From: Arthrobacter caoxuetaonis | Lineage (GTDB): Bacteria; Actinomycetota; Actinomycetes; Actinomycetales; Micrococcaceae | Reading direction: 5' to 3' | Assembly (NCBI RefSeq): GCF_023921125.1 | Contig: NZ_CP099466.1 | Location: 2,728,001-2,792,000, forward strand | Length of the DNA stretch: 64,000 nt | Shown here: positions 47,837-59,462 of the stretch, in pieces | Numbering within the stretch: the stretch's first letter is position 1 | Layout of the letters: each line of letters opens with the position of its first letter | Translations under genes and position numbers: made by a program | The notes under the pieces: generated by a model | The model's database searches: none | What the model saw: only the letters and a program-made list of their open reading frames with translations | What the model was told of the DNA's origin: nothing

Positions 47837-50800
47837 TCAGGCCCTGCTGTCTTCCTTTTCCCGGCTTTCCTCAGGGTCTGCACGCACCCTCGTCAGGCGC
47901 CAGACCGCAAGCCCGATCAGCCCCGCAGCGAGCAGCGCCAGCAGCAGGAATGTGTAACCGCGCAGGTACCAGAGCACTGCAAGGGCCACTCCGGCTGCGC
48001 CCCAGATCGTGAACAGCTTCCGGCTGGCCAGCAGGCCGAAGGCGAGCAGCGCGGCGTGGGCAAGAAGTGCCCACAGCTGCTCTCCGGCATCCCCCGAGCT
48101 GACGGTGCCCAGGCCGCTCCCGGAGACGATGACCGCGGCGGCTCCCAGCACCGCGGTGCCCCTGGTCCCCCGGCGGCGGATGAACTCCCAGGCCGCAACC
48201 CCGGCCAGGACAGCTGCCCAGTACTGCAGGGACCAAAAGAGGTCCGCCGGGCCCAGGACAAACCAAATCAGGCGCTGCACGGCGAACGCGGCAGGCAGGA
48301 CTGCAGCCTCCGTGGCCGCTTCGCGAAGGCCGCCGGGCACTTCCCGAACCGCCAGAGCCAGGGCTGCGAGCAGGGTCAGTGAACCCGCTGCGGCAGAACT
48401 GTTGAACTCGGCCATGGCAGGAACCGCGCCCAAAACCAGCAGCCACGAGGAGCCGCTGCCCATGATCCGCAGCCGCAGTACCGTCCTGGGAACCTGCTCC
48501 GCGAGGGACATGATGAGCCGGGCAGCCTGCAGTGCCAAGGCCGCACCCCAGGCCGGCCAGAGTTCCCCGTAGCCCGGCGCAAACGGCGCACGAAGGACAG
48601 TCCGTTCGAATTCTCCGGCACACAGAAGGGCAGAGGCAAAGACGAGCGCAGCCGTCCCTGCGCTGAGCCAGGGCATGTTCCGCGTGTAGGACGCCGTCAG
48701 CAGACCCGCTGCTGCCGCCGCTGCAGCAAGGCCGCCAAGAGCGAGGCTCTCATCCGCTGCTGCGGCCAGCCCCGTGAGGAGGATGAATCCACCGGCGGAA
48801 GCAAGCAGGACGGTCCGGACCGGCAGGGGCAGGGCCGGCCGGGCTTCACCGGCAAGGGCGGCGGCGGCGAATGCTGCCAGCACCAGGCCGGCAGCCATGA
48901 TGGACAAGGGTGCCTCCGGCAGCACTCCCCCGCCGCTGAAAGGCACGAGTTCGGTCAGGGCCAGCGGCAGGGCGCCTAGGGCAGCTGCTGCCGGATACAG
49001 CATTGCTGCCCTGCGGCAGCGGAGGAATCCCGAGACGCTTACGACGAGCAGCAGGAGCAGGAATGCGGAGACCACGTCCCGCTGCATCCGGTCCGCCAGC
49101 AGCGCCGCGTATCCCACGGGTGCCATGGAGAGAAGGGCGAGGCTCGTCCACAGGGCGGCAGCGCTCAAGCCAACACCTGCCAGCCGCGGTTCCAGGACCG
49201 TCCGAAGAATTTGGGCTGTGGCAACGGCGGCCGCACCCGAGGCGAAGAGGCCGTGGATGTTTGCGCCGGCGTCGGCAGCCACCAGAACCGCCAGAACCGC
49301 GGTGAGCAACTGAACTGCCAGAAGATACCGGCCCCTGTTCGGATGTCCCTTTCGGGCAGCCAGATAGGACGAGTAGCCAAGGGCAGCGAGGACCAAAAGC
49401 TCGTAGCCGCGAAGTCCCAGCAGGCCTGCGCCCGTGATGCCGGCTCCTGCGAACCCGGCCACGGCCAGGGCCTCCCAACGGCCCGGCCGCAGCAGCAGTG
49501 AGGACGCTGCATTAATGCCGAGCGCGGTCCAGAGCACGGCAACGCCCCAGACGGCCTCCTGCTCGCCGGCCAGCCGGATCGCGGGGACAGCGAGCAGTGC
49601 GCCCGCTGCAGCCGCTATGACCAGTTCGGCGCAGTACGGCAGCGCCCGGCCGTTCCGGATCCTTACGGCAGCGTCCAGCTGGGTCAGCAGGAACACGGCA
49701 GCGGCGGCAAGGATCATGATGAGCAGTGTCACCGGTTCCGTGCGCCCGGACAGAAGGTAGGTGAACGGAAGGACCGTCTGTACAGCCAGCCCGCTCCACC
49801 GGACAGGTTCCGCAAGGCCCAGGTCCCGTACCCGCGAGTGGAACAGCGTCCTGAGAAGGTGGCCGGCCGCCACCCCGATGGACATCACGGCGAAGAATGC
49901 GCCGCGGGAATCCGCTGCCGCATCGGCTGCAATGAGCGCGGCGAGGAGCGGGGCAAGTGCCTGCGCGGCGGCGAGGTACGCGCCGCGGAAACCGCCGGCC
50001 CGGTCGAGCACCATCACGACGCAGTAGGCGAGCGCGGCGGCGCAGAGGAACTCATATCCCCGCAGCCCCAGGACACCGGCTCCCACTGCCCCCGCTGCGA
50101 GGAATCCGCCCGGGGCCAGGAGGGCGAGCAGCGTGTGCCGGTGCCGTGCCGCCGTTGCGAGGTTGGCAGCAAGGGCGACCCACAGCGCGGCTGCGGCCCA
50201 AGGCCCCGCCGGGGACTCTGCGGCGCGAACTCCGGCACACAGCAGCAGGACCAGCGCAGCGGCTGCCACCGGCGCACGGTTCCATGCCGGATCGGTTTTC
50301 GGGAGCAGGGATGCGGCGACCTGCGTCACCACCGCGCTGGCCCCCGCTATCAGGAGCAGGACACTGCCGGTTTCCGCCTGAGCCTGGGATGCCAGCAGCA
50401 GATAGTAGGCCGGGGCCACGGCGGCCAGGGCGAGCAGGCTCCCCCAGGTGAGCACCTGCGCCATTCCGAAGAAGTCCAGCCGCTTGCCGAGCAGGGTCCT
50501 GGCCAGGTGCTGGAGGGCCAGGGATACCGCAACCGTCACAAAGACGCCGTGCACCGTAAGCCGAAGGTCCGCTGCCACGAGCGCGGCCAGAACGCTGACG
50601 AGCGCCTGCCCTGCGGCCAGGTAGTACCCGCGGAGCGGACGCGGGGCGGCCCACAGTGCCTGGACGGCACTGTAGACCACTGCCGCAGCGGCAAGTACTT
50701 CATATCCGCGCAGGCCAAGCTGGCCGGCACCAAGCAGGGCACCGGCGAGGAAGCCCGCAGGAGCATAGAGTGCGGCCAATGCACGCCCCGTCCGCTCAAG

Positions 50801-52990
50801 CAGCAGCGACGAGGCGGTATTCAGGAGCACGGTGACCCAGATGACCGCAAGCATCAGGCCCTCCGCCGGAGCCTCAACGGCGAGCGCAGCGGCGAACGCG
50901 AGTGCAGCGGCCGCGGAGAGGCCGTGGACCGTCTGCGGGTAGTTTTCCGGCCTGCCGGTGACACCGAGCAGGACGGACCACGCCTGGTTCAGCGCTGCGG
51001 CCAGGAAGGCCGCGGCGAGGGTCCAGGTCCAGGCACTTCCGGGTGCGCTGGATTGCAGCAGGATGAAGACTGCCAGCGGCACGGCCGGGAGGGCAGCAGT
51101 CCGTGCTGCCAGCGTGAAGGCTGCACGGGTCCCGGCTTGGGCTCGTACCGCACGAAGGACAAAGTAGCCGGTCAGCGTAACGAGCAGCAGCAGGACCGGC
51201 CACAGCGGCGCCCCGCTGGTCAGCAGGCAGGCCAGGACAGGAAGCAGCAGCGCTGCTGAGGCCAGCGGCTCAGCAGCGTTCCGGAGCTTCCATGCTGCCG
51301 TGAATAGCGTGAGCTGGGCCAGGACCGCTGAGGCCACAAAGAGCCACAGGTTCCCGGAGCCTTCGTGCGCTTCCACCGCGTAGGCCACGGCCGCTGCCGT
51401 GGCAGCGGCGAATTGAAGGGCAAGCACGGCCAGGAGGTCGGTGTGGAAGACCCGCACGGCCCCGGGTGCGGTTTCTGAAAGGCCTGGCGAGCGCGGCTCC
51501 TCCTTCGGCGTGGCCTGGGCCGGTGCAAGGCTCAGGGCCGCAACTGCGAGGTAACGGCCGGTTCCGGCGCAAAGCGCGGCGGCCTGCACCCCCAGCAGGA
51601 AGACAGCCGCCAGCAGGGTCGCCGGCAGACTGTCCAGGACGGTGTCTGCGAGCGCAGTGAGTCCAACCGTCGCTGACACACGCGCTCCAAGACTGTGCGC
51701 CAGTGCCTGGGACCGGGGTGCCTGCCGGAACATCACCAGGTAGTACGCACCAAAGGCCAGGAACAGGGCCGCAATGGCTGCCGTGCCGAGCTCTGCCCAG
51801 ACAAGTACCGCGGCCGCTGCCGTCGCGGGCACCAGATAGCGGTGCGCCTGCACGAAGGCATCCAGGTAGATGTTCCGCAGCCAGGCCGGACGGCGGATCG
51901 CAGCCAGGCTGATCAGCGTTGCCAGCAGCACGGTGAAGAGGAAAGCCCAGACGATGCCGGCGCGCAGGGACGCCCCCGAGGCCAGCGCCGTCGAGATCAG
52001 GAAGGTCAGCGCCAGATAGGTCACCACGCGGCTTTCCAGCCGCGCTGCGGCGTAGGCGAACGCCGCGCTTCCCACCACTGAAGTGACCAGCCAGGCCAGG
52101 GCCGCGTCCGGCAGGAGGAAGTTATAGAGGGCGAGCCCCACCACGGGTATCAGCGCCAGACCAGTGCCCGTAAACGCGACAGCGGCAGGGCGCAGGGCCT
52201 TCCGCCGTGAGTGGACCACCAGCCCGGAAGCGTAGAAGAGCACCGTCAGGGCCACCACGCCCGCGAACCGTGCCTGCTCCGGAACCGAAATACCGATAAA
52301 CAGGGACGCTGCGGCGACAAGCAGCAGGCTGCCCGCATAGAGGGTGATGTTGATGTTGCGCAGGTCCCTGCGGCGCTTCTCGCGGGCAAGTTCCGCTTCC
52401 GACTTCACCGGCTGCGGAGGATGCGCCGGCGGGCGGACAGCGCCTGCTGCCGCGGGGGCGTTTCCCCACGGGCGCGGCGTCCCCGCGGCTTCAGGCTGGA
52501 GCGGCCGCTGCGCCTCCGCCTGCGGTACCTCCGGCCGCGGTACGGTCACCGGCGGCAGCGGCATGACAGGTTGGGACGGCAGGGGCTGCTGCCGGGGAGA
52601 TGGAGGGTGGAAAGCTGCAGGGTTCGGCGCGGGAACCTGGGGAGCAGGAGGGCCGAAGGCTGGCCCGGAACCAGGTTCCGGCTGCGTACGGTATTCCCGG
52701 GCAGGTGCGGCACCCGCAGTACCGGCGGCAGCAGCAGCGGCCGCAGCACCTCCACCGGCAGCAGCAGGGACAGCAGCAGCGCCGGCCGGAACGCCGGCGG
52801 CCTGACCCGCCAGCCCGGCATCCCGGCGTCCAGCCTGGTAGCCCTCCTCGAAGATGTGTGCAGGATGAGGCAGAACTTCTCCGTATCCGTAGGCATTACC
52901 GGATGTGCTGCCCGCGGACCGCCGCGCACTCAGGCGGCCCACTGCAAATCCGCCTGCCGCAACGGCAAGAAAAAAGAAGAACTCCCCCAT
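47837..52990 (-). CDS. giant polytopic membrane protein with three tandem ~216-residue repeats
   Basis: 1717 residues. Residues 5-20 form an N-terminal helix. About 60-200 is a Pro/Ala/Gln-rich linker ending in charged KSEAELAREKRRRDL; the rest is an almost unbroken series of hydrophobic helices, several dozen by eye. The motif GLRGYE recurs at about residues 759, 975 and 1192, and a second anchor, GxYLxAxQ...LVAAD...HGxF, at 788, 1003 and 1220. That gives three repeats of about 216 residues. The type resembles the large actinobacterial SCO7613-like / DUF2157-like membrane proteins of unknown function. No catalytic motif was seen. It is divergent from the EPSPS-ligase operon. Confidence 0.8.
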   Translation of the reverse strand: MGEFFFFLAVAAGGFAVGRLSARRSAGSTSGNAYGYGEVLPHPAHIFEEGYQAGRRDAGLAGQAAGVPAGAAAVPAAAGGGAAAAAAAAGTAGAAPAREYRTQPEPGSGPAFGPPAPQVPAPNPAAFHPPSPRQQPLPSQPVMPLPPVTVPRPEVPQAEAQRPLQPEAAGTPRPWGNAPAAAGAVRPPAHPPQPVKSEAELAREKRRRDLRNINITLYAGSLLLVAAASLFIGISVPEQARFAGVVALTVLFYASGLVVHSRRKALRPAAVAFTGTGLALIPVVGLALYNFLLPDAALAWLVTSVVGSAAFAYAAARLESRVVTYLALTFLISTALASGASLRAGIVWAFLFTVLLATLISLAAIRRPAWLRNIYLDAFVQAHRYLVPATAAAAVLVWAELGTAAIAALFLAFGAYYLVMFRQAPRSQALAHSLGARVSATVGLTALADTVLDSLPATLLAAVFLLGVQAAALCAGTGRYLAVAALSLAPAQATPKEEPRSPGLSETAPGAVRVFHTDLLAVLALQFAAATAAAVAYAVEAHEGSGNLWLFVASAVLAQLTLFTAAWKLRNAAEPLASAALLLPVLACLLTSGAPLWPVLLLLVTLTGYFVLRAVRAQAGTRAAFTLAARTAALPAVPLAVFILLQSSAPGSAWTWTLAAAFLAAALNQAWSVLLGVTGRPENYPQTVHGLSAAAALAFAAALAVEAPAEGLMLAVIWVTVLLNTASSLLLERTGRALAALYAPAGFLAGALLGAGQLGLRGYEVLAAAAVVYSAVQALWAAPRPLRGYYLAAGQALVSVLAALVAADLRLTVHGVFVTVAVSLALQHLARTLLGKRLDFFGMAQVLTWGSLLALAAVAPAYYLLLASQAQAETGSVLLLIAGASAVVTQVAASLLPKTDPAWNRAPVAAAALVLLLCAGVRAAESPAGPWAAAALWVALAANLATAARHRHTLLALLAPGGFLAAGAVGAGVLGLRGYEFLCAAALAYCVVMVLDRAGGFRGAYLAAAQALAPLLAALIAADAAADSRGAFFAVMSIGVAAGHLLRTLFHSRVRDLGLAEPVRWSGLAVQTVLPFTYLLSGRTEPVTLLIMILAAAAVFLLTQLDAAVRIRNGRALPYCAELVIAAAAGALLAVPAIRLAGEQEAVWGVAVLWTALGINAASSLLLRPGRWEALAVAGFAGAGITGAGLLGLRGYELLVLAALGYSSYLAARKGHPNRGRYLLAVQLLTAVLAVLVAADAGANIHGLFASGAAAVATAQILRTVLEPRLAGVGLSAAALWTSLALLSMAPVGYAALLADRMQRDVVSAFLLLLLVVSVSGFLRCRRAAMLYPAAAALGALPLALTELVPFSGGGVLPEAPLSIMAAGLVLAAFAAAALAGEARPALPLPVRTVLLASAGGFILLTGLAAAADESLALGGLAAAAAAAGLLTASYTRNMPWLSAGTAALVFASALLCAGEFERTVLRAPFAPGYGELWPAWGAALALQAARLIMSLAEQVPRTVLRLRIMGSGSSWLLVLGAVPAMAEFNSSAAAGSLTLLAALALAVREVPGGLREAATEAAVLPAAFAVQRLIWFVLGPADLFWSLQYWAAVLAGVAAWEFIRRRGTRGTAVLGAAAVIVSGSGLGTVSSGDAGEQLWALLAHAALLAFGLLASRKLFTIWGAAGVALAVLWYLRGYTFLLLALLAAGLIGLAVWRLTRVRADPEESREKEDSRA

Positions 52991-53202: not shown

Positions 53203-56200
53203 TTGAAGGGCTCTGACGCCATGTACCTTTCGGTCCTGGGAACTGCGCAGCGCATCTGTGGCGAAGCCCTGGTGCCCAACTCGAAATACCACGCACACAG
53301 GGCACTGATCCTGGCTTCCCTGGCGCCGGGCACCAGCAGGATCACGGGTCTGACCGACGCCCGGCACGTGCACTACACGGTGGAAATGCTCCGGCGCCTG
53401 GGCACCCGGATCGAGATCGACGGCGGCACCTACGTGGTCCACGGCGGACCGTACCGTCCGGCGCGCCAGGACATCTCCGCCGGAAGTTCCGGCACCACCC
53501 TTTACTTCATGGTGGGACTGGCTGCCCTGGGCTCGAAGGATGTCACCGTCACGGGGCAGAAATACTTCCAGCGGCGCCCTATCGGTCCGCTGCTTGCGGC
53601 GCTGCGCCAGATGGGGCTCGACGTCGACTCCCCCACGGACTGCCCGCCCATCAAGGTGCGGGCCAAAGCGCCTACCGGCGGCGAGGTCCACATTGCCGGA
53701 ACTCTCTCCCAGTGGATCTCGGGCCTGCTGCTCCTGGCTCCGTTCGCTTCCCACCCGACCGCAGTGGTGGTGGACGGAACGCTGAACGAACGCACCTACC
53801 TGCACCTGACGGTGCAGATGATGCGCCGGTTCGGACTGCGGATCGACGTGTCCGAGGACTGGCACCGCTTCGAAATCCCGCCCGGCCAGCAGGCTGTTCC
53901 CACCGATATGCGGATACCACCGGACATTGGGTCGGCGGCCTTCGGACTCGCCGCAGCGGCCCTGCATCCGGCAGACCTGCTCCTGCACGGGCTGCAGACA
54001 GTCACGTCCGCAGGCGCTGACCACCCGGAAGCGGACTTCCTGGACGTCGCCGCTTCCATGGGGCTGCCCATGAAGTACGACGCCGCACATGACGCGGTCC
54101 GGGTCCGGCACGACGGGGTGTCCCTGCAACCTGCAGAAATCGACTGCCGCACCGTCCCGGACATGCTTCCCATCCTCTCCGTCATGGCTGCCGGCGCCGA
54201 CGGCGAGAGCATCTTCCGCAATGTCGCACACGTGCGCCTGAAGGAATCGGACCGGGTTGCCGCCATGCTGCAGCTGAATTCCATGGGGGCCGAGGTCCGC
54301 ATCAGCGGCAGTGACCTCCGGGTCCGCGGATCAGCCCGGCTGACCGGTGCGGACCTTTCCTCGTTCAACGACCACCGGGTGCTGATGTCCCTGGCCGTCG
54401 CGGCCTCGGCCGCCGAGGGACTGTCCACCCTGACCTACCCGAATGCCTACCGGATTTCCTACCCGGAGTTCCTTAAGGCAATGAACTCTTTCGGCCTGTC
54501 CATGCAGGTCCAGGACGGGAAGGCAGCGAGGCGGCCCGCATCCCGCGGTACCCGTCCCCGCCAGGGCAGGACACCGGCCCTGGACATCGAGGCAGCTGCC
54601 CGGGTCACGGCCCCGGACTGGGTCCGCCGCTGGGCGGCCGAACGCCCTGCACGCACTGCCGTGGTGGATGGCCGCCCGCAGGACACCGGACACCTGACCT
54701 GGGCAGAGCTCGACGCCGGAGCAGACCGGATCGCGGCAATGCTGCTGGACCTGGGGGTGCGTGCCGGAGACCGGGTGGCGTTCCAGCTGCCGAACTGGAG
54801 CGAGTTCGTCCTCTTGACCGTGGCTGCGCTGCGGATCGGTGCGGTGGCAGCTCCCATCATGCCGATTTTCCGCGAACGGGAAGTCGCGTTCGCGCTGCAC
54901 CGTTCCGGCGCCGCCGTCGTTGTTGTTCCCGAGGAGTTCCGCGGACGGCACTACGCCGCCGAGCTTTCCGGGATCCTTGCTGCCGGCAGCGATCCCGACT
55001 ATGAGCTGGCGGTTCGGCACGTCCTGGTCATCGGAGCAGCCGCCCCTCCCCTGCCGGTGCGGGACCGGGGCGTGAGGTGGCACGGCTGGGAACAGGAGCT
55101 GGCCGAAACCCCGGTGGACCGCGAACGAATAGACGCGGCCGCACCGGATGCCCAGGTGCCGGCCCAGCTCCTGTTTACCTCGGGAACCACCGGAGAGCCC
55201 AAAGGCGTCCTGCACCGGCATTCGACCCTCTCCCGGGCCGCGGCAATGCAAGCTCGCCAGCTGGGACTCGGTGGCGGCGACGCCATCTTCGTTCCCTCTC
55301 CCCTGGCCCACCAGACCGGTTTCCTTTACGGCATGTGGCTCTCCTTTGTCCTCGGAACTCCCCAAATCCTGCAGTCCGTCTGGGATCCGGTCCGGGCCCT
55401 GAACATGCTGCGCGCCTGGCAGGGCACGTTCGTGCAGGCCGCCACCCCGTTCCTGGATGACCTGGTCAAAGCCGTAGAAGCCGGTTCCCCCGCGCCCCGG
55501 AGCCTGCGGATCTTCGTCAACACAGGTGCCGCCGTTCCCCGCCACCTTTCCGAGCGGGCCACCAGGGTGCTGGACGCCGCGGTTTGCGGGGCTTTCGGGA
55601 CCACCGAGACGTGCCTGGGTGCCGTTTCCACCCCGGGAGACGATCCGGCGCTCGTCTGGGGAACTGACGGGCAGCTGCTGCCCGGGGTCCAGGCACGGAT
55701 CGTCAGCGACGACGGCCACCCGCTGCCCGCAGGAACGGAAGGGAACTTTGAACTCCTCAGCCCCACACTGTTCGAGGGTTACCTTGACCGCCCGGACCTC
55801 ACCAAGGAGGCGTTCACGGACGATGGCTGGTACCGCACCGGTGACCTGGCAACACTGGACGACGCCGGTTACCTCCGGATCACCGGACGCGTACGGGACG
55901 TGATTAACCGGGGCGGGGAGAAAATCCCGGTGGCCGAGATCGAACAGCTGCTGTACCGGCACCCGAAGGTCGACGACGTCGCGCTGGCCGCCATGCCGGA
56001 TCCCCGGTTGGGCGAACGGGCGTGCGCCTTCGTGGTTCCTGCCGGAACCCCGCCCACGCTGCGCGAACTCACTGATTACCTGGACCGGTGCCGGGTTGCA
56101 AAGCATTATTGGCCGGAACGGCTTGAACTGCTCAGCGAGATTCCCCGCAACCCCGTGGGAAAGGTACAAAAATTCCTGCTGCGGGATCAGGCGCGGCAAC

Positions 56201-56244
56201 TGGCCGGGAAAGCCCGTGCCGCCGAAGACAGGAGTCCTTCGTGA
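53203..56244 (+). CDS. fusion of EPSP-synthase-like domain and cyclohexanecarboxylate-type CoA ligase
   Basis: 1013 residues. Residues 7-435 form an EPSP synthase (AroA) fold: K28-R33 (NSKYHAHRAL), the SSGTT loop near 95, RRPIG at 124, VPDMLPI at 318, RLKESDR at 345 and NDHR at 389. A basic linker (about 436-465) leads to an AMP-forming CoA ligase with RPARTAVVDG, PIMPIFREREV, LLFTSGTTGEPKG (657-669), GAFGTTETC, the YRTGDL-GRVRDVINRGGEKIP block and VGKVQK with catalytic Lys near 997. The ligase half is of the cyclohexanecarboxylate-CoA ligase type. Several EPSPS active-site residues are replaced (see findings), so it is probably not housekeeping AroA. TTG start has GAGGA seven bases upstream; ATG at 53221 is an alternative. 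GTGA overlap with the next gene. Confidence 0.88.
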   Translation: MKGSDAMYLSVLGTAQRICGEALVPNSKYHAHRALILASLAPGTSRITGLTDARHVHYTVEMLRRLGTRIEIDGGTYVVHGGPYRPARQDISAGSSGTTLYFMVGLAALGSKDVTVTGQKYFQRRPIGPLLAALRQMGLDVDSPTDCPPIKVRAKAPTGGEVHIAGTLSQWISGLLLLAPFASHPTAVVVDGTLNERTYLHLTVQMMRRFGLRIDVSEDWHRFEIPPGQQAVPTDMRIPPDIGSAAFGLAAAALHPADLLLHGLQTVTSAGADHPEADFLDVAASMGLPMKYDAAHDAVRVRHDGVSLQPAEIDCRTVPDMLPILSVMAAGADGESIFRNVAHVRLKESDRVAAMLQLNSMGAEVRISGSDLRVRGSARLTGADLSSFNDHRVLMSLAVAASAAEGLSTLTYPNAYRISYPEFLKAMNSFGLSMQVQDGKAARRPASRGTRPRQGRTPALDIEAAARVTAPDWVRRWAAERPARTAVVDGRPQDTGHLTWAELDAGADRIAAMLLDLGVRAGDRVAFQLPNWSEFVLLTVAALRIGAVAAPIMPIFREREVAFALHRSGAAVVVVPEEFRGRHYAAELSGILAAGSDPDYELAVRHVLVIGAAAPPLPVRDRGVRWHGWEQELAETPVDRERIDAAAPDAQVPAQLLFTSGTTGEPKGVLHRHSTLSRAAAMQARQLGLGGGDAIFVPSPLAHQTGFLYGMWLSFVLGTPQILQSVWDPVRALNMLRAWQGTFVQAATPFLDDLVKAVEAGSPAPRSLRIFVNTGAAVPRHLSERATRVLDAAVCGAFGTTETCLGAVSTPGDDPALVWGTDGQLLPGVQARIVSDDGHPLPAGTEGNFELLSPTLFEGYLDRPDLTKEAFTDDGWYRTGDLATLDDAGYLRITGRVRDVINRGGEKIPVAEIEQLLYRHPKVDDVALAAMPDPRLGERACAFVVPAGTPPTLRELTDYLDRCRVAKHYWPERLELLSEIPRNPVGKVQKFLLRDQARQLAGKARAAEDRSPS

Positions 56245-57440
56245 ACACCAGCGCCACCAAGACCAGCACCGTCACCGCCGACGGGCGCGGCAGTTCGGTC
56301 CCGGAACCCGATTATCTGGCACTGCTTGACCGGGTTACCAGCTGGGTCCAGGGCCCGGGCGAGGAGTGGTCCGGAAGAATCGAAGCCACGGGCACCGTCC
56401 CGGACGACCTCTGGAAACAGCTGCGCGAAGAAGGCTTCCTCTCCCTCGCTGCCCCGCGGGATCTGGGCGGCACGGGCCTGAGTTTCGTGCAGTGGATGGG
56501 CCTCATGGAAGTCTTCTCCCGTTCCCATGCTTCCGTGCGGATGATCGTCCACGTCCTGAACGGGACCTGGCGGGCCATGAATCCTTTCGCCGATGAGGCC
56601 CAGCGGCAGCGGTTCGTTCTCCCCGCAGTCGCGGGCGAGACCGTCGTCGCCTTTACCCTGACAGAACCCGCGAACGGCAGCGGAGCGGACATCACCTCCT
56701 CCGTCCGCAGGGACGGGGACACCTATTACCTCAGCGGACGCAAGCACCTGATTACCTTTGGCGTCCGCTGCGACTACTGGCTTCTTTTTGCCCGGCTGGA
56801 AGGCAGCACCGGAAGGGACGGGACGGTGGCGCTCCTGGTGGACCGCAATACACCGGGCGTCCAGGTGGAGGACACTTCGGCGACCATGGGAGTCCGCGGC
56901 ACCGACCACGCCTCCCTCACCTTCACCGATGCACCGGTGCCGGTCGGGAACCGGCTCGGCGCTGAAGGAGACGGACTGGCCGTCGCCCTGGGCGGGTTCC
57001 TGACGCCGAGCCGGATTTCGGTGGCGATGAGCTGTGTGGGCCTGGCGCAGCGTGCACAGCAGCTGGCCGTGGACTATGCGCGGCAGCGTACCACCTTCGG
57101 CAAGCCGCTGGCGTCCAGGCAGGCCATCGCCTTTTCACTGGCTGAAAACGCCGCAGACATCGCAGCGGCGAAGGCCCTGACACTAACCGCCGCAGCGGCC
57201 TGGCAGGCGGCTGAACCCACCGCCGCTGCCCTCTCCTCCATGGCGAAGCTGACCGCAGTGGACATGCTGGGACGGGTCACGGACAAGGCCCTGCAGGTCC
57301 ACGGCGGCATCGGCTACTGGCAGACCCAGCCGATTGAACGTGTGTACCGCGACGCCCGGGCGCAGCGGTTCGAAGAGGGCACGAATGAGATCCAGAAGGC
57401 CGTTATCGCCCGGGAGATCCTCGGCGGAGCGGCCGGGTAG
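56241..57440 (+). CDS. acyl-CoA dehydrogenase
   Basis: 399 residues, an FAD enzyme that introduces or removes a double bond alpha-beta to a CoA thioester. AFTLTEPANGSGAD is the flavin/substrate block, RGTDHASLTFTDAPVPVGNR the middle domain, YARQRTTFGKPLASRQAIAF the C-terminal helix, and EEGTNEIQK carries the expected catalytic base at Glu379. The start is GTG at 56241, overlapping the upstream stop. It sits between an acid-CoA ligase and a dienoyl-CoA reductase, so a cyclic acyl-CoA substrate is the best inference. Confidence 0.9.
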   Translation: MNTSATKTSTVTADGRGSSVPEPDYLALLDRVTSWVQGPGEEWSGRIEATGTVPDDLWKQLREEGFLSLAAPRDLGGTGLSFVQWMGLMEVFSRSHASVRMIVHVLNGTWRAMNPFADEAQRQRFVLPAVAGETVVAFTLTEPANGSGADITSSVRRDGDTYYLSGRKHLITFGVRCDYWLLFARLEGSTGRDGTVALLVDRNTPGVQVEDTSATMGVRGTDHASLTFTDAPVPVGNRLGAEGDGLAVALGGFLTPSRISVAMSCVGLAQRAQQLAVDYARQRTTFGKPLASRQAIAFSLAENAADIAAAKALTLTAAAAWQAAEPTAAALSSMAKLTAVDMLGRVTDKALQVHGGIGYWQTQPIERVYRDARAQRFEEGTNEIQKAVIAREILGGAAG

Positions 57441-57449
57441 GCGACTGCC

Positions 57450-59462
57450 ATGCCGGATGACCCGCGCCCAGGATTCCGGCAGTTCCCGCATGTCTTTGCG
57501 CCCGGCAGGATCGGAACGCTGGAGGTGCCGCACCGGATCATCATGGGCTCCATGCACCTGAACTTTGAGCAGGATCCGCCCGCACTCGCCTCCTTCTACG
57601 CCGAGCGGGCAGCGGGCGGCGCCGGGCTGATCGTCACCGGAGGCGCCGCCGTCAACAGGGAAGGCTCGGGCGGCCCGACCTATCTGGTGGCGGGTGAGGT
57701 ACCTTTCCGGGAAGCTGCCGCCGCAGCACTGGAAGCGGTGCACAACGCCGGAGCGAAGCTGGCGCTCCAGCTTTTCCACGCCGGCCGCTATGCCTTCGAA
57801 AGCACCTACGGACTGCAGCCGGCAGCCCCGTCCGCGGTCTGGTCCGCCTATTCCAAGGCCATGCCGGCGGCTATGGACGAGGAGCACGTCCGCCGCACGC
57901 TTGCCGCTTTCGCTGCTGCTGCGGCCCAGGCCCGGGAATTGGGCTTCGACGCTGTGGAGATCATGGGGTCCGAGGGGTACTTGGTGAACCAGTTCGCGTC
58001 GGCCGCAACGAACCGGCGCGATGATTCCTGGGGCGGGGACGCCCTGCGCCGGCAGGCCTTTCCGCTGGCAGTCCTCTCGGCAGTCCGCGGGGCCGTGGGC
58101 ACCGGCTTCCCGGTCATCTTCCGCCTGTCCGGGGACGACCTGGTCGACGGCGCCGGTCCTCCCGAGGAGTACGTGTCACTGGCCGGAGCCCTGGCCGCAG
58201 GAGGTGCAGATGCCCTGAACATCGGCATTGGATGGCACGAATCCCGGATCCCCACCGTGCAGGCCATGGTCCCCCACGGCACCTGGCTTCCAGTGGCAGC
58301 CCGTATCCGACAGCACCTGGCGGGTGCCGGGCATACCGTACCGGTGATCGGTTCCAACCGGATTAACTCGGTGGCGCAGGCGGAGGCGGCCCTGGCCGAC
58401 CGCATGGTCGATTTCGTGTCGATGGCCCGCCCGTTGCTGGCTGATCCCCGCATCATAGCCAAGTCAGCCGCTGGAAGGCCTGACCTGGTAAACACCTGCA
58501 TCGCCTGCAACGAGGCCTGCATCGACCGATCGCTCGGAACAGAGCCGGTCTCCTGCCTGGTCAACCCGCGCGCCGGACGTGAACGTGCCTTCCCGGTGTC
58601 TTTTCCACCGCGGACCAGGAGTGCCGGCACGCCGCGTGCCGCAGTTGCCGGCGCCGGTCCGGCCGGCCTGCAGGCAGCGGCCGCCCTAGCGGAAGCCGGT
58701 ATCCACGTGGACCTCTTCGAATCCGCACCCGGAATCGGCGGGCAGTTCCGGCTGGCATGCGTGGTCCCGGGCAAAGCGGATTTCGCCGAGACCATTCGCT
58801 ACTTTTCCCGGGAACTGCCCCGTCTGGGGGTTGAGATCCACACCGGTGTCCTTGCCGGCGCGGAGGTGCTCTCCGGTTTCAGCCATGTCATCGACGCCAC
58901 GGGGGTGCTCCCGCGGACCGTCCGCCTGCCGGGAGCCGAGTACCTGCCGGTTTACGACTACCACGAGGCCTTCGCTGTGGCCGCCGCCCTCCCCCGCAGG
59001 CTGGCCATTGTCGGGGCCGGCGGCATCGCCGTCGACCTCGCCCACCTGCTCGCGGAACACCGCTTCCGGCAGATCACCCTGCTGCGCCGGGGCAGCCGCA
59101 TCGGAGAAGGCATTGGGCCCTCCACCCGATGGGCTGTGCTGCAGGCACTGCGCAGTGCCGGAGTCGCGATGCTGACCGGAGTCAGCTGCAAGGAGGTGAC
59201 GCCACGGGGACTGATCCTTGCGGGGTCCGGCGGGCAGGATGAACTCGTCCCGGCGGACGCCGTCATTGTCGCCGCGGGACAGGTGGAAAACAGCTCCCTG
59301 TCGCGCGAACTGGCTGCAGCCGGCATAGCGCACACGAGCGTCGGCGGGGCGGCGTCGGCTGCAGGACTCAACGCCGTGCGGGCCTTTGCCGAAGGACTGG
59401 CCTCCGGCAGGGCACTGGCAGGGGAACTGACCGGGGAACGCAAAAGGGCCCCGCTGCCGTAG
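57450..59462 (+). CDS. FadH-type 2,4-dienoyl-CoA reductase / old yellow enzyme family
   Basis: 670 residues. The N-terminal TIM barrel (FMN) carries QLFHAGRYA, EIMGSEGYLVNQF with the active-site Tyr, and GIGWHESRIPT with the active-site His, as in E. coli FadH. A 4Fe-4S site follows (CIACNEAC, then a fourth Cys at SCLVNPRA). The C-terminal half has FAD and NAD(P) Rossmann motifs (AVAGAGPAGLQAAAALAEAG and AIVGAGGIAVDLAHLL). It starts nine bases after the dehydrogenase. Its stop codon lies in the loop of the terminator hairpin. It probably reduces a conjugated cyclohexadiene-carboxyl-CoA; that is inference. Confidence 0.9.
   Translation: MPDDPRPGFRQFPHVFAPGRIGTLEVPHRIIMGSMHLNFEQDPPALASFYAERAAGGAGLIVTGGAAVNREGSGGPTYLVAGEVPFREAAAAALEAVHNAGAKLALQLFHAGRYAFESTYGLQPAAPSAVWSAYSKAMPAAMDEEHVRRTLAAFAAAAAQARELGFDAVEIMGSEGYLVNQFASAATNRRDDSWGGDALRRQAFPLAVLSAVRGAVGTGFPVIFRLSGDDLVDGAGPPEEYVSLAGALAAGGADALNIGIGWHESRIPTVQAMVPHGTWLPVAARIRQHLAGAGHTVPVIGSNRINSVAQAEAALADRMVDFVSMARPLLADPRIIAKSAAGRPDLVNTCIACNEACIDRSLGTEPVSCLVNPRAGRERAFPVSFPPRTRSAGTPRAAVAGAGPAGLQAAAALAEAGIHVDLFESAPGIGGQFRLACVVPGKADFAETIRYFSRELPRLGVEIHTGVLAGAEVLSGFSHVIDATGVLPRTVRLPGAEYLPVYDYHEAFAVAAALPRRLAIVGAGGIAVDLAHLLAEHRFRQITLLRRGSRIGEGIGPSTRWAVLQALRSAGVAMLTGVSCKEVTPRGLILAGSGGQDELVPADAVIVAAGQVENSSLSRELAAAGIAHTSVGGAASAAGLNAVRAFAEGLASGRALAGELTGERKRAPLP

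Follow-up and report, generated by a model that had tools for sequence, protein, structure and literature searches.

The window analyzed here, a stretch of 64,000 nucleotides of Arthrobacter caoxuetaonis (contig NZ_CP099466.1, positions 2,728,001 to 2,792,000), carries a three-gene operon. Its first gene joins an EPSP-synthase-like domain and an AMP-forming acyl-CoA ligase in one protein, and the two others encode an acyl-CoA dehydrogenase and a FadH-type reductase. The gene for a fourth enzyme, ChcA, lies in a second operon on the same contig, and the new element relative to the known pathway is that chcA has been displaced and stands with a dedicated pair of ligase and ketosynthase. We consider it probable that the two operons together form a complete, physically split route from shikimate to cyclohexanecarboxyl-CoA (CHC-CoA) that feeds the dedicated ketosynthase, most likely for the production of omega-cyclohexyl acyl chains. 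The sequences show open frames for all four enzyme types used in the Streptomyces route, and the genes are co-inherited within the genus. The route from shikimate to CHC-CoA is, on these comparisons, very probably encoded, and an end use in omega-cyclohexyl fatty-acyl chains, to which the linkage of the genes points, has about an even chance of being correct. The initial annotation, made from the window, had proposed an alicyclic acyl-CoA derived from shikimate and destined for lipids or a metabolite, a proposal that gains support at the gene level.

In Streptomyces, the ligase, dehydrogenase, reductase, and ChcA classes are each assigned steps in the formation of CHC-CoA. By analogy with the Streptomyces pathways, the EPSP-synthase-like half would remove or activate a shikimate hydroxyl, the ligase half would make the CoA ester, and the dehydrogenase, the FadH-type reductase, and ChcA would take the ring to its saturated state. 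The linkage of the ketosynthase to chcA suggests that it would then put CHC-CoA-derived acyl groups into a growing chain.

Table 1. Features of the two operons (window positions unless a contig is named)
Feature	Position	Strand	Basis or remark
PlmJK-type fusion, EPSP-synthase-like domain plus AMP-forming acyl-CoA ligase	53221..56244	+	Pfam, homologues, alignment
PlmL-type acyl-CoA dehydrogenase	56241..57440	+	Pfam, PDB alignment, operon order in related loci
PlmM-type FadH/old-yellow-enzyme reductase	57450..59462	+	Pfam, 1ps9 alignment, operon order
Hairpin, 15-bp stem, TTT at end of 3' arm, over the reductase stop codon	59443..59476	.	Sequence, fold
Second operon: chcA, AMP ligase, FabF-type ketosynthase	G000:C1:235380-239184		Same contig

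The fusion operon and its enzymes

All three open reading frames (ORFs) of the operon were found, on the plus strand and abutting one another (Table 1). The tight linkage described in the initial annotation holds, with a GTGA overlap of the fusion and dehydrogenase genes at 56241-56244 and a gap of 9 nt (57441-57449) before the reductase gene. The start of the fusion gene, which had been placed at TTG 53203, is on alignment most likely ATG 53221, because in 20 of the 21 relatives aligned the sequence begins no earlier than the M(Y/H)LSV column. The intact catalytic residues claimed for the two downstream enzymes were also found. The dehydrogenase has the N, M, and C domains of the Pfam Acyl-CoA_dh families, and its RFEEGTNEIQ motif aligns onto the EGT Glu of PDB entry 4u83. 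The reductase combines Pfam Oxidored_FMN and Pyr_redox_2 and aligns with the E. coli 2,4-dienoyl-CoA reductase 1ps9 (E 2e-129), keeping the Tyr of GSEGYLxN, the His of GIGWHExRIPT, and the four cysteines, assigned to the Fe-S cluster, of NTCIxCNxACxD...SCLVNPRA. We take these kept residues of the two proteins to be the catalytic ones.

The 1007-aa fusion frame matches Pfam EPSP_synthase, followed by AMP-binding and AMP-binding_C, with the EPSP-synthase-like domain at about residues 10-420 and the AMP-forming ligase at about residues 469-981. Among the best 120 homologues listed, the 119 others all have the same three Pfam domains, with 59-85% identity and at least 96% coverage of the query; the named sources include Arthrobacter, Cellulomonas, Microbacteriaceae, Streptomyces, and others. 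The operon is not a chance arrangement, given that these homologues share the three domains and that most of the loci read have the genes in this order. The ligase half is most like the cyclohexanecarboxylate-CoA ligase model TIGR03208, at 457.9 bits against a curated cut-off of 792.3, so that of the "cyclohexanecarboxylate-type" label first given to it the similarity stands and the equivalog assignment does not.

Residue comparisons set the EPSP-synthase-like half apart from ordinary AroA. In the numbering of the E. coli enzyme, all 22 aligned members keep the equivalents of K22, R27, R124, S170, Q171, K340, E341, R344, and R386. All 22 also differ at four positions that we take to be ligand-binding in E. 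coli, with S23 changed to Tyr, S169 to Leu, S197 to Glu, and K411 to Ile with an invariant Arg beside it. The usual residues stand at these four positions in L002, another AroA-like protein of the same genome that is 28% identical to the fusion domain; the fusion is thus not the cell's sole AroA-like protein, and two further proteins, L001 and L004, are MurA by eye. A change of N336 to His was dropped from the comparison, as L002 also has His there. If the changed serines are contacts to shikimate-3-phosphate and K411 a contact to phosphoenolpyruvate (PEP), as we presume, then the loss of the serines would fit a substrate without the 3-phosphate, possibly with a shikimate hydroxyl activated as a leaving group, and the loss of K411 would make the use of PEP uncertain.

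The chcA operon and its ketosynthase

The genome encodes a ChcA orthologue (G000:C1:235380-236219) that has 72% identity to ChcA of Sinomonas, against 35% for the next short-chain dehydrogenase/reductase (SDR), and that lies about 2.5 Mb from the fusion operon along the same 3.56-Mb contig. In quick trees, the ChcA proteins fall into a single clade that excludes seven other SDRs of the genome, which sit on long branches; the ChcA of A. caoxuetaonis groups with those of its genus and one Cellulomonas, a placement that agrees with the fusion tree. The assignment consists of homology and tree placement, and the reductase activity is predicted from them. The genome search that the initial annotation had called for thus returned a tree-supported homologue; its statement that no ChcA gene is in the window is correct, and in the genome chcA is displaced and not absent. 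Loss of chcA from the lineage, as the window and 11 close loci first suggested, is ruled out by this orthologue. The initial annotation had likewise noted no polyketide synthase or fatty acid synthase in the window, and a chain-building enzyme, the genome's second FabF, sits in the chcA operon.

In that operon, a gene for an AMP ligase (567 aa) begins 14 nt past chcA and overlaps that of a FabF-type ketosynthase (415 aa). The ligase stands after ChcA in all 15 of the genus loci fetched (out of 21 ChcA matches). In the ketosynthase, the ACASG, CAHGT, and APKSMTGH motifs preserve the catalytic Cys, both His, and the Lys; the enzyme scores 487.4 bits with the TIGR03150 fabF model, just under the cut-off of 493.75, and passes the PRK07314 FabF subfamily (472.2 against a cut-off of 387). 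The genome's other FabF is encoded beside FabH at 2.22 Mb of C1 and is 43% identical to the chcA-linked enzyme. These two are the only full ketosynthase matches of the genome, the five others being short and weak, and no modular or type II polyketide synthase linked to CHC genes is among them. At the positions equivalent to Ile108 and Phe202 of E. coli FabF, an equivalence set by motif, the ketosynthase has Val and Leu, and its GFGGQN motif has Gln where the other FabF has His. The comparison covered 36 subfamily rows, several of them from one genome fetched twice. These pocket changes would suit a chain with a bulky ring at its end. Ketosynthases of Eremiobacterota have the same Leu and Gln, but Met at the Ile108 equivalent.

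Spread and co-occurrence of the two gene sets

A scan of genome contigs found 214 stretches that encode a relative of the fusion, and we retained the 80 best as loci. The order fusion-dehydrogenase-ChcA-reductase is seen at 55 of the 80. Eleven, all from Arthrobacter of the window's group or Cellulomonas, have fusion-dehydrogenase-reductase without ChcA, six have fusion-dehydrogenase-ChcA without the reductase, and eight have the fusion alone or with the dehydrogenase, three of these at a contig end. The Specibacter/Arthrobacter terrae group (L017-L021) has operons with ChcA and without the FadH-type reductase. Three Streptomyces loci (L065, L066, and L068) have a fusion gene with no adjoining dehydrogenase, and the strains of L065 and L066 also gave full operon loci (L026 and L031).

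The fusion is uncommon. In a survey of the family Micrococcaceae, it is matched in 11 of 120 genomes (E 1e-200), from 4 of 32 genera, with one of the matches only partial. An even draw across the phylum, with two candidates scored per genome, gave 5 matches in 396 genomes at E 1e-150, and the fusion itself occurs only in the window's own genome; the other four match in the ligase half, and the two read further have unfused genes. Separate, slightly overlapping AroA-like and ligase genes, followed by dehydrogenase and ChcA genes, are found at L143 (G249:C21) and L144 (G260:C11), and this unfused state in two distant genomes of the phylum implies that the fusion joins two neighbors of one pathway. 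At L144, a luciferase-like oxidoreductase stands in place of the FadH-type reductase. Plasmids gave 3069 records with some match, but in no case does it extend over 80% of the fusion; in the 20 listed, it is confined to the ligase half.

Within the genus (29 genomes), the fusion is present in 20 (E 1e-150) and ChcA in 21 (E 1e-80), including all 20 with the fusion; the cluster ketosynthase (at least 80% identity) occurs in the same 21 genomes as ChcA, and the remaining eight have none of the three. This co-occurrence gives a Fisher p of 2e-6 with shared ancestry ignored. All six genes stand in a row at six Streptomyces loci (L023, L027, L028, L034, L036, and L037), and the DNA read there contains no type I ketosynthase motif. 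The cluster ketosynthase is present at 15 of the 80 loci with at least 57% identity. Among 21 genomes reached through the loci, 11 have it at 60% or more, with the ligase adjoining in 9 of those 11. Five ligase-ketosynthase stretches were read further: four, from Specibacter, Homoserinimonas, Microlunatus, and Arthrobacter terrae, lack ChcA, and the fifth, from Cellulomonas, has the order ChcA-ligase-ketosynthase. The linked and unlinked arrangements indicate that the six genes belong to a single set whose members need not lie together. Equal longest contigs, matched by eye (for example, 8,654 and 10,039 bases), suggest that in each of nine fusion/ketosynthase pairs the two genes share a contig. 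Cryobacterium has a ketosynthase of the cluster type at 66-67%. At 11 of the 80 loci, namely, 10 of the 12 from Eremiobacterota and L075, a different ketosynthase (33-38%) precedes the fusion gene on its own strand, ending 0-110 bp before it; L073, the eleventh Eremiobacterota locus, has one downstream, and L070 is cut off.

Both flanks of the fusion operon are encoded on the minus strand. On one side, divergent from the operon, lies a gene (47837-52990) for a membrane-type protein of 1717 aa, rich in Ala and Leu, that contains repeated segments and matches no Pfam family; on the other side lie genes for EF-Tu, EF-G, and S7, recognized by eye. The hairpin over the reductase stop codon (fold -32.8 kcal/mol, z -4.39) is likely a terminator between the reductase operon and the convergent EF-Tu gene. 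Divergent from chcA in part of the genus loci fetched are genes for a TetR-type regulator and a small cupin protein (L095:8053-9071, minus strand).

Known systems and competing explanations

CHC-CoA starter genes have been named for ansatrienin (ansJ-M and chcA) and for asukamycin. As proxies for the named Ans, Plm, and Asu sequences, we used two loci at which members of the fusion family sit beside ansamycin-type and 3-amino-4-hydroxybenzoate (3,4-AHBA)-type genes. The neighbors at L032 include an AHBA-synthesis-associated protein (TIGR01454, 349.3 against a cut-off of 246.65) and an amino acid adenylation domain over its cut-off. Those at L043 include two genes of 3,4-AHBA-making families, which exceed the cut-offs of general models and fall below those of the BagB/BagC models, two KAS III genes, and an acyl carrier protein (ACP)-like gene below ACP cut-offs. 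We infer that L032 is an ansatrienin-like and L043 an asukamycin-like cluster; the stretches read of the window's genome contain no such AHBA-type neighbors.

The likeness to Streptomyces CHC starter genes proposed in the initial annotation is borne out by gene order. In PMC5852498, a table for the lactomycin and phoslactomycin clusters gives the order plmJK, plmL, ChcA, plmM, which is that of the 55 full-order loci above, and six genes are ascribed to synthesis of the CHC starter. From its name, plmJK would be a single gene covering the two halves, although in that table it is annotated only as an AMP-dependent synthetase and ligase. Unlike the phoslactomycin cluster, the window's clade has a distant chcA, no linked polyketide synthase, and a FabF-type ketosynthase and second ligase in the chcA operon. 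Outside antibiotic synthesis, PMC3426160 and PMC5023266 report cyclohexyl fatty acids in Curtobacterium pusillum, acids that are cited from 1981 work, and C. pusillum ATCC 19096 (L080) carries the fusion-dehydrogenase-ChcA-reductase genes. A review (PMC4147253) states that CHC-CoA is also the precursor of omega-cyclohexyl fatty acids, which make up 3.1% of the total, in the asukamycin producer. For Alicyclobacillus, the portion of PMC10562698 consulted contains lipid data and no pathway genes.

Several observations weigh against a complete route that ends in omega-cyclohexyl chains. The C. pusillum genome has no close copy of the dedicated ketosynthase (best match, 43%), which implies that this enzyme is not needed for omega-cyclohexyl chains there. 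More broadly, the cluster ketosynthase is missing in 10 of the 21 genomes reached through the loci: two Sinomonas, three Curtobacterium, four Streptomyces (L030, L032, L045, and L062), and one Lentzea. C. luteum and C. flaccumfaciens carry the same four genes and, to our knowledge, have not been described as omega-cyclohexyl producers, so that presence of the operon may not mean the phenotype. The described Arthrobacter of this group have, as far as we know, mainly anteiso-branched acids and are not known for cyclohexyl acids. In titles and opening lines of abstracts of the open-licence literature, we found no paper linking the group to such acids and nothing on CHC operons in Arthrobacter or a CHC-linked FabF, which is not proof that none exists. 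Both the ligase half and the dehydrogenase fall under the NCBI cut-offs for cyclohexanecarboxylate enzymes. Five genomes of the Specibacter group lack a close reductase (best copy, 45-46%), and in G127 the chcA-ligase-ketosynthase genes are present but the fusion is absent and no reductase matches at E 1e-60. The chcA of G127 is not a pseudogene, as the reported stop is the normal gene end.

Some of these points bear on another explanation, that CHC-CoA is made but the ligase-ketosynthase pair yields a small secreted or signaling metabolite, such as a short polyketide or acyl derivative, and not a membrane fatty acid. A FabF-type enzyme whose pocket is changed and which is paired with a separate ligase would be suited to this, as would an ABC transporter pair (ATPase and FtsX-type permease) encoded on the opposite strand about 3.6 kb upstream of chcA; other family members stand in antibiotic-type contexts (L032 and L043), and we know of no cyclohexyl lipids in the clade. 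However, among the ORFs read, no ketoreductase, dehydratase, or ACP gene was recognized directly beside either operon (short ORFs were inspected by eye near chcA only, without profile searches), and both operons are kept in 20 of the 29 genus genomes. On balance, we regard this explanation as rather unlikely.

We give much less weight to two readings that deny synthesis of CHC-CoA. Degradation of an alicyclic acid or shikimate-like compound is suggested by the relatedness of the ligase and acyl-CoA dehydrogenase families to those of cyclohexanecarboxylate degradation (bad/ali), with the ligase half closest to TIGR03208 and the dehydrogenase matching cyclohexane-carbonyl-CoA dehydrogenase models weakly. 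Yet both score far under the curated cut-offs, the operon has no ring-hydrating or ring-opening gene, and the fused EPSP-synthase-like domain, ChcA, and linked ketosynthase fit synthesis; relatives with the same gene order are found, or listed in the literature, in antibiotic starter contexts. We therefore judge degradation to be highly improbable. That the EPSP-synthase-like domain is a second AroA of the aromatic pathway, next to an unrelated ligase operon, is less credible still. It passes the NCBIfam aroA model (TIGR01356, 311.2 against a cut-off of 287.25), it keeps Lys, Arg, and Glu residues of the EPSP synthase site, and many named database copies of the fusion are labeled 3-phosphoshikimate 1-carboxyvinyltransferase (EPSP synthase). 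This label is likely a misannotation. The genome has L002, from which the domain differs at four presumed ligand-binding positions in every member aligned. At 72 of the 80 loci, the genes next to the fusion are those of the dehydrogenase and of either ChcA or the reductase, and CHC genes also accompany the unfused copies (L143 and L144).

Synthesis of CHC-CoA by the split route, with the ketosynthase as its outlet, remains our preferred reading. More tentatively, and with chances somewhat short of even, the genes may represent a stand-alone alicyclic-starter system, with a dedicated ligase-ketosynthase pair, a FabF subfamily of its own with a reshaped acyl pocket, two different ketosynthases attached to CHC operons (one in Actinomycetota and one in Eremiobacterota), and cyclohexyl-tipped chains in bacteria not known for them. 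The two operons supply candidates for the genes that make omega-cyclohexyl acyl chains where no antibiotic cluster is involved, as in Curtobacterium pusillum, and predict that cyclohexyl lipids or metabolites would be found in the Arthrobacter, Cellulomonas, and Microbacteriaceae that carry them.

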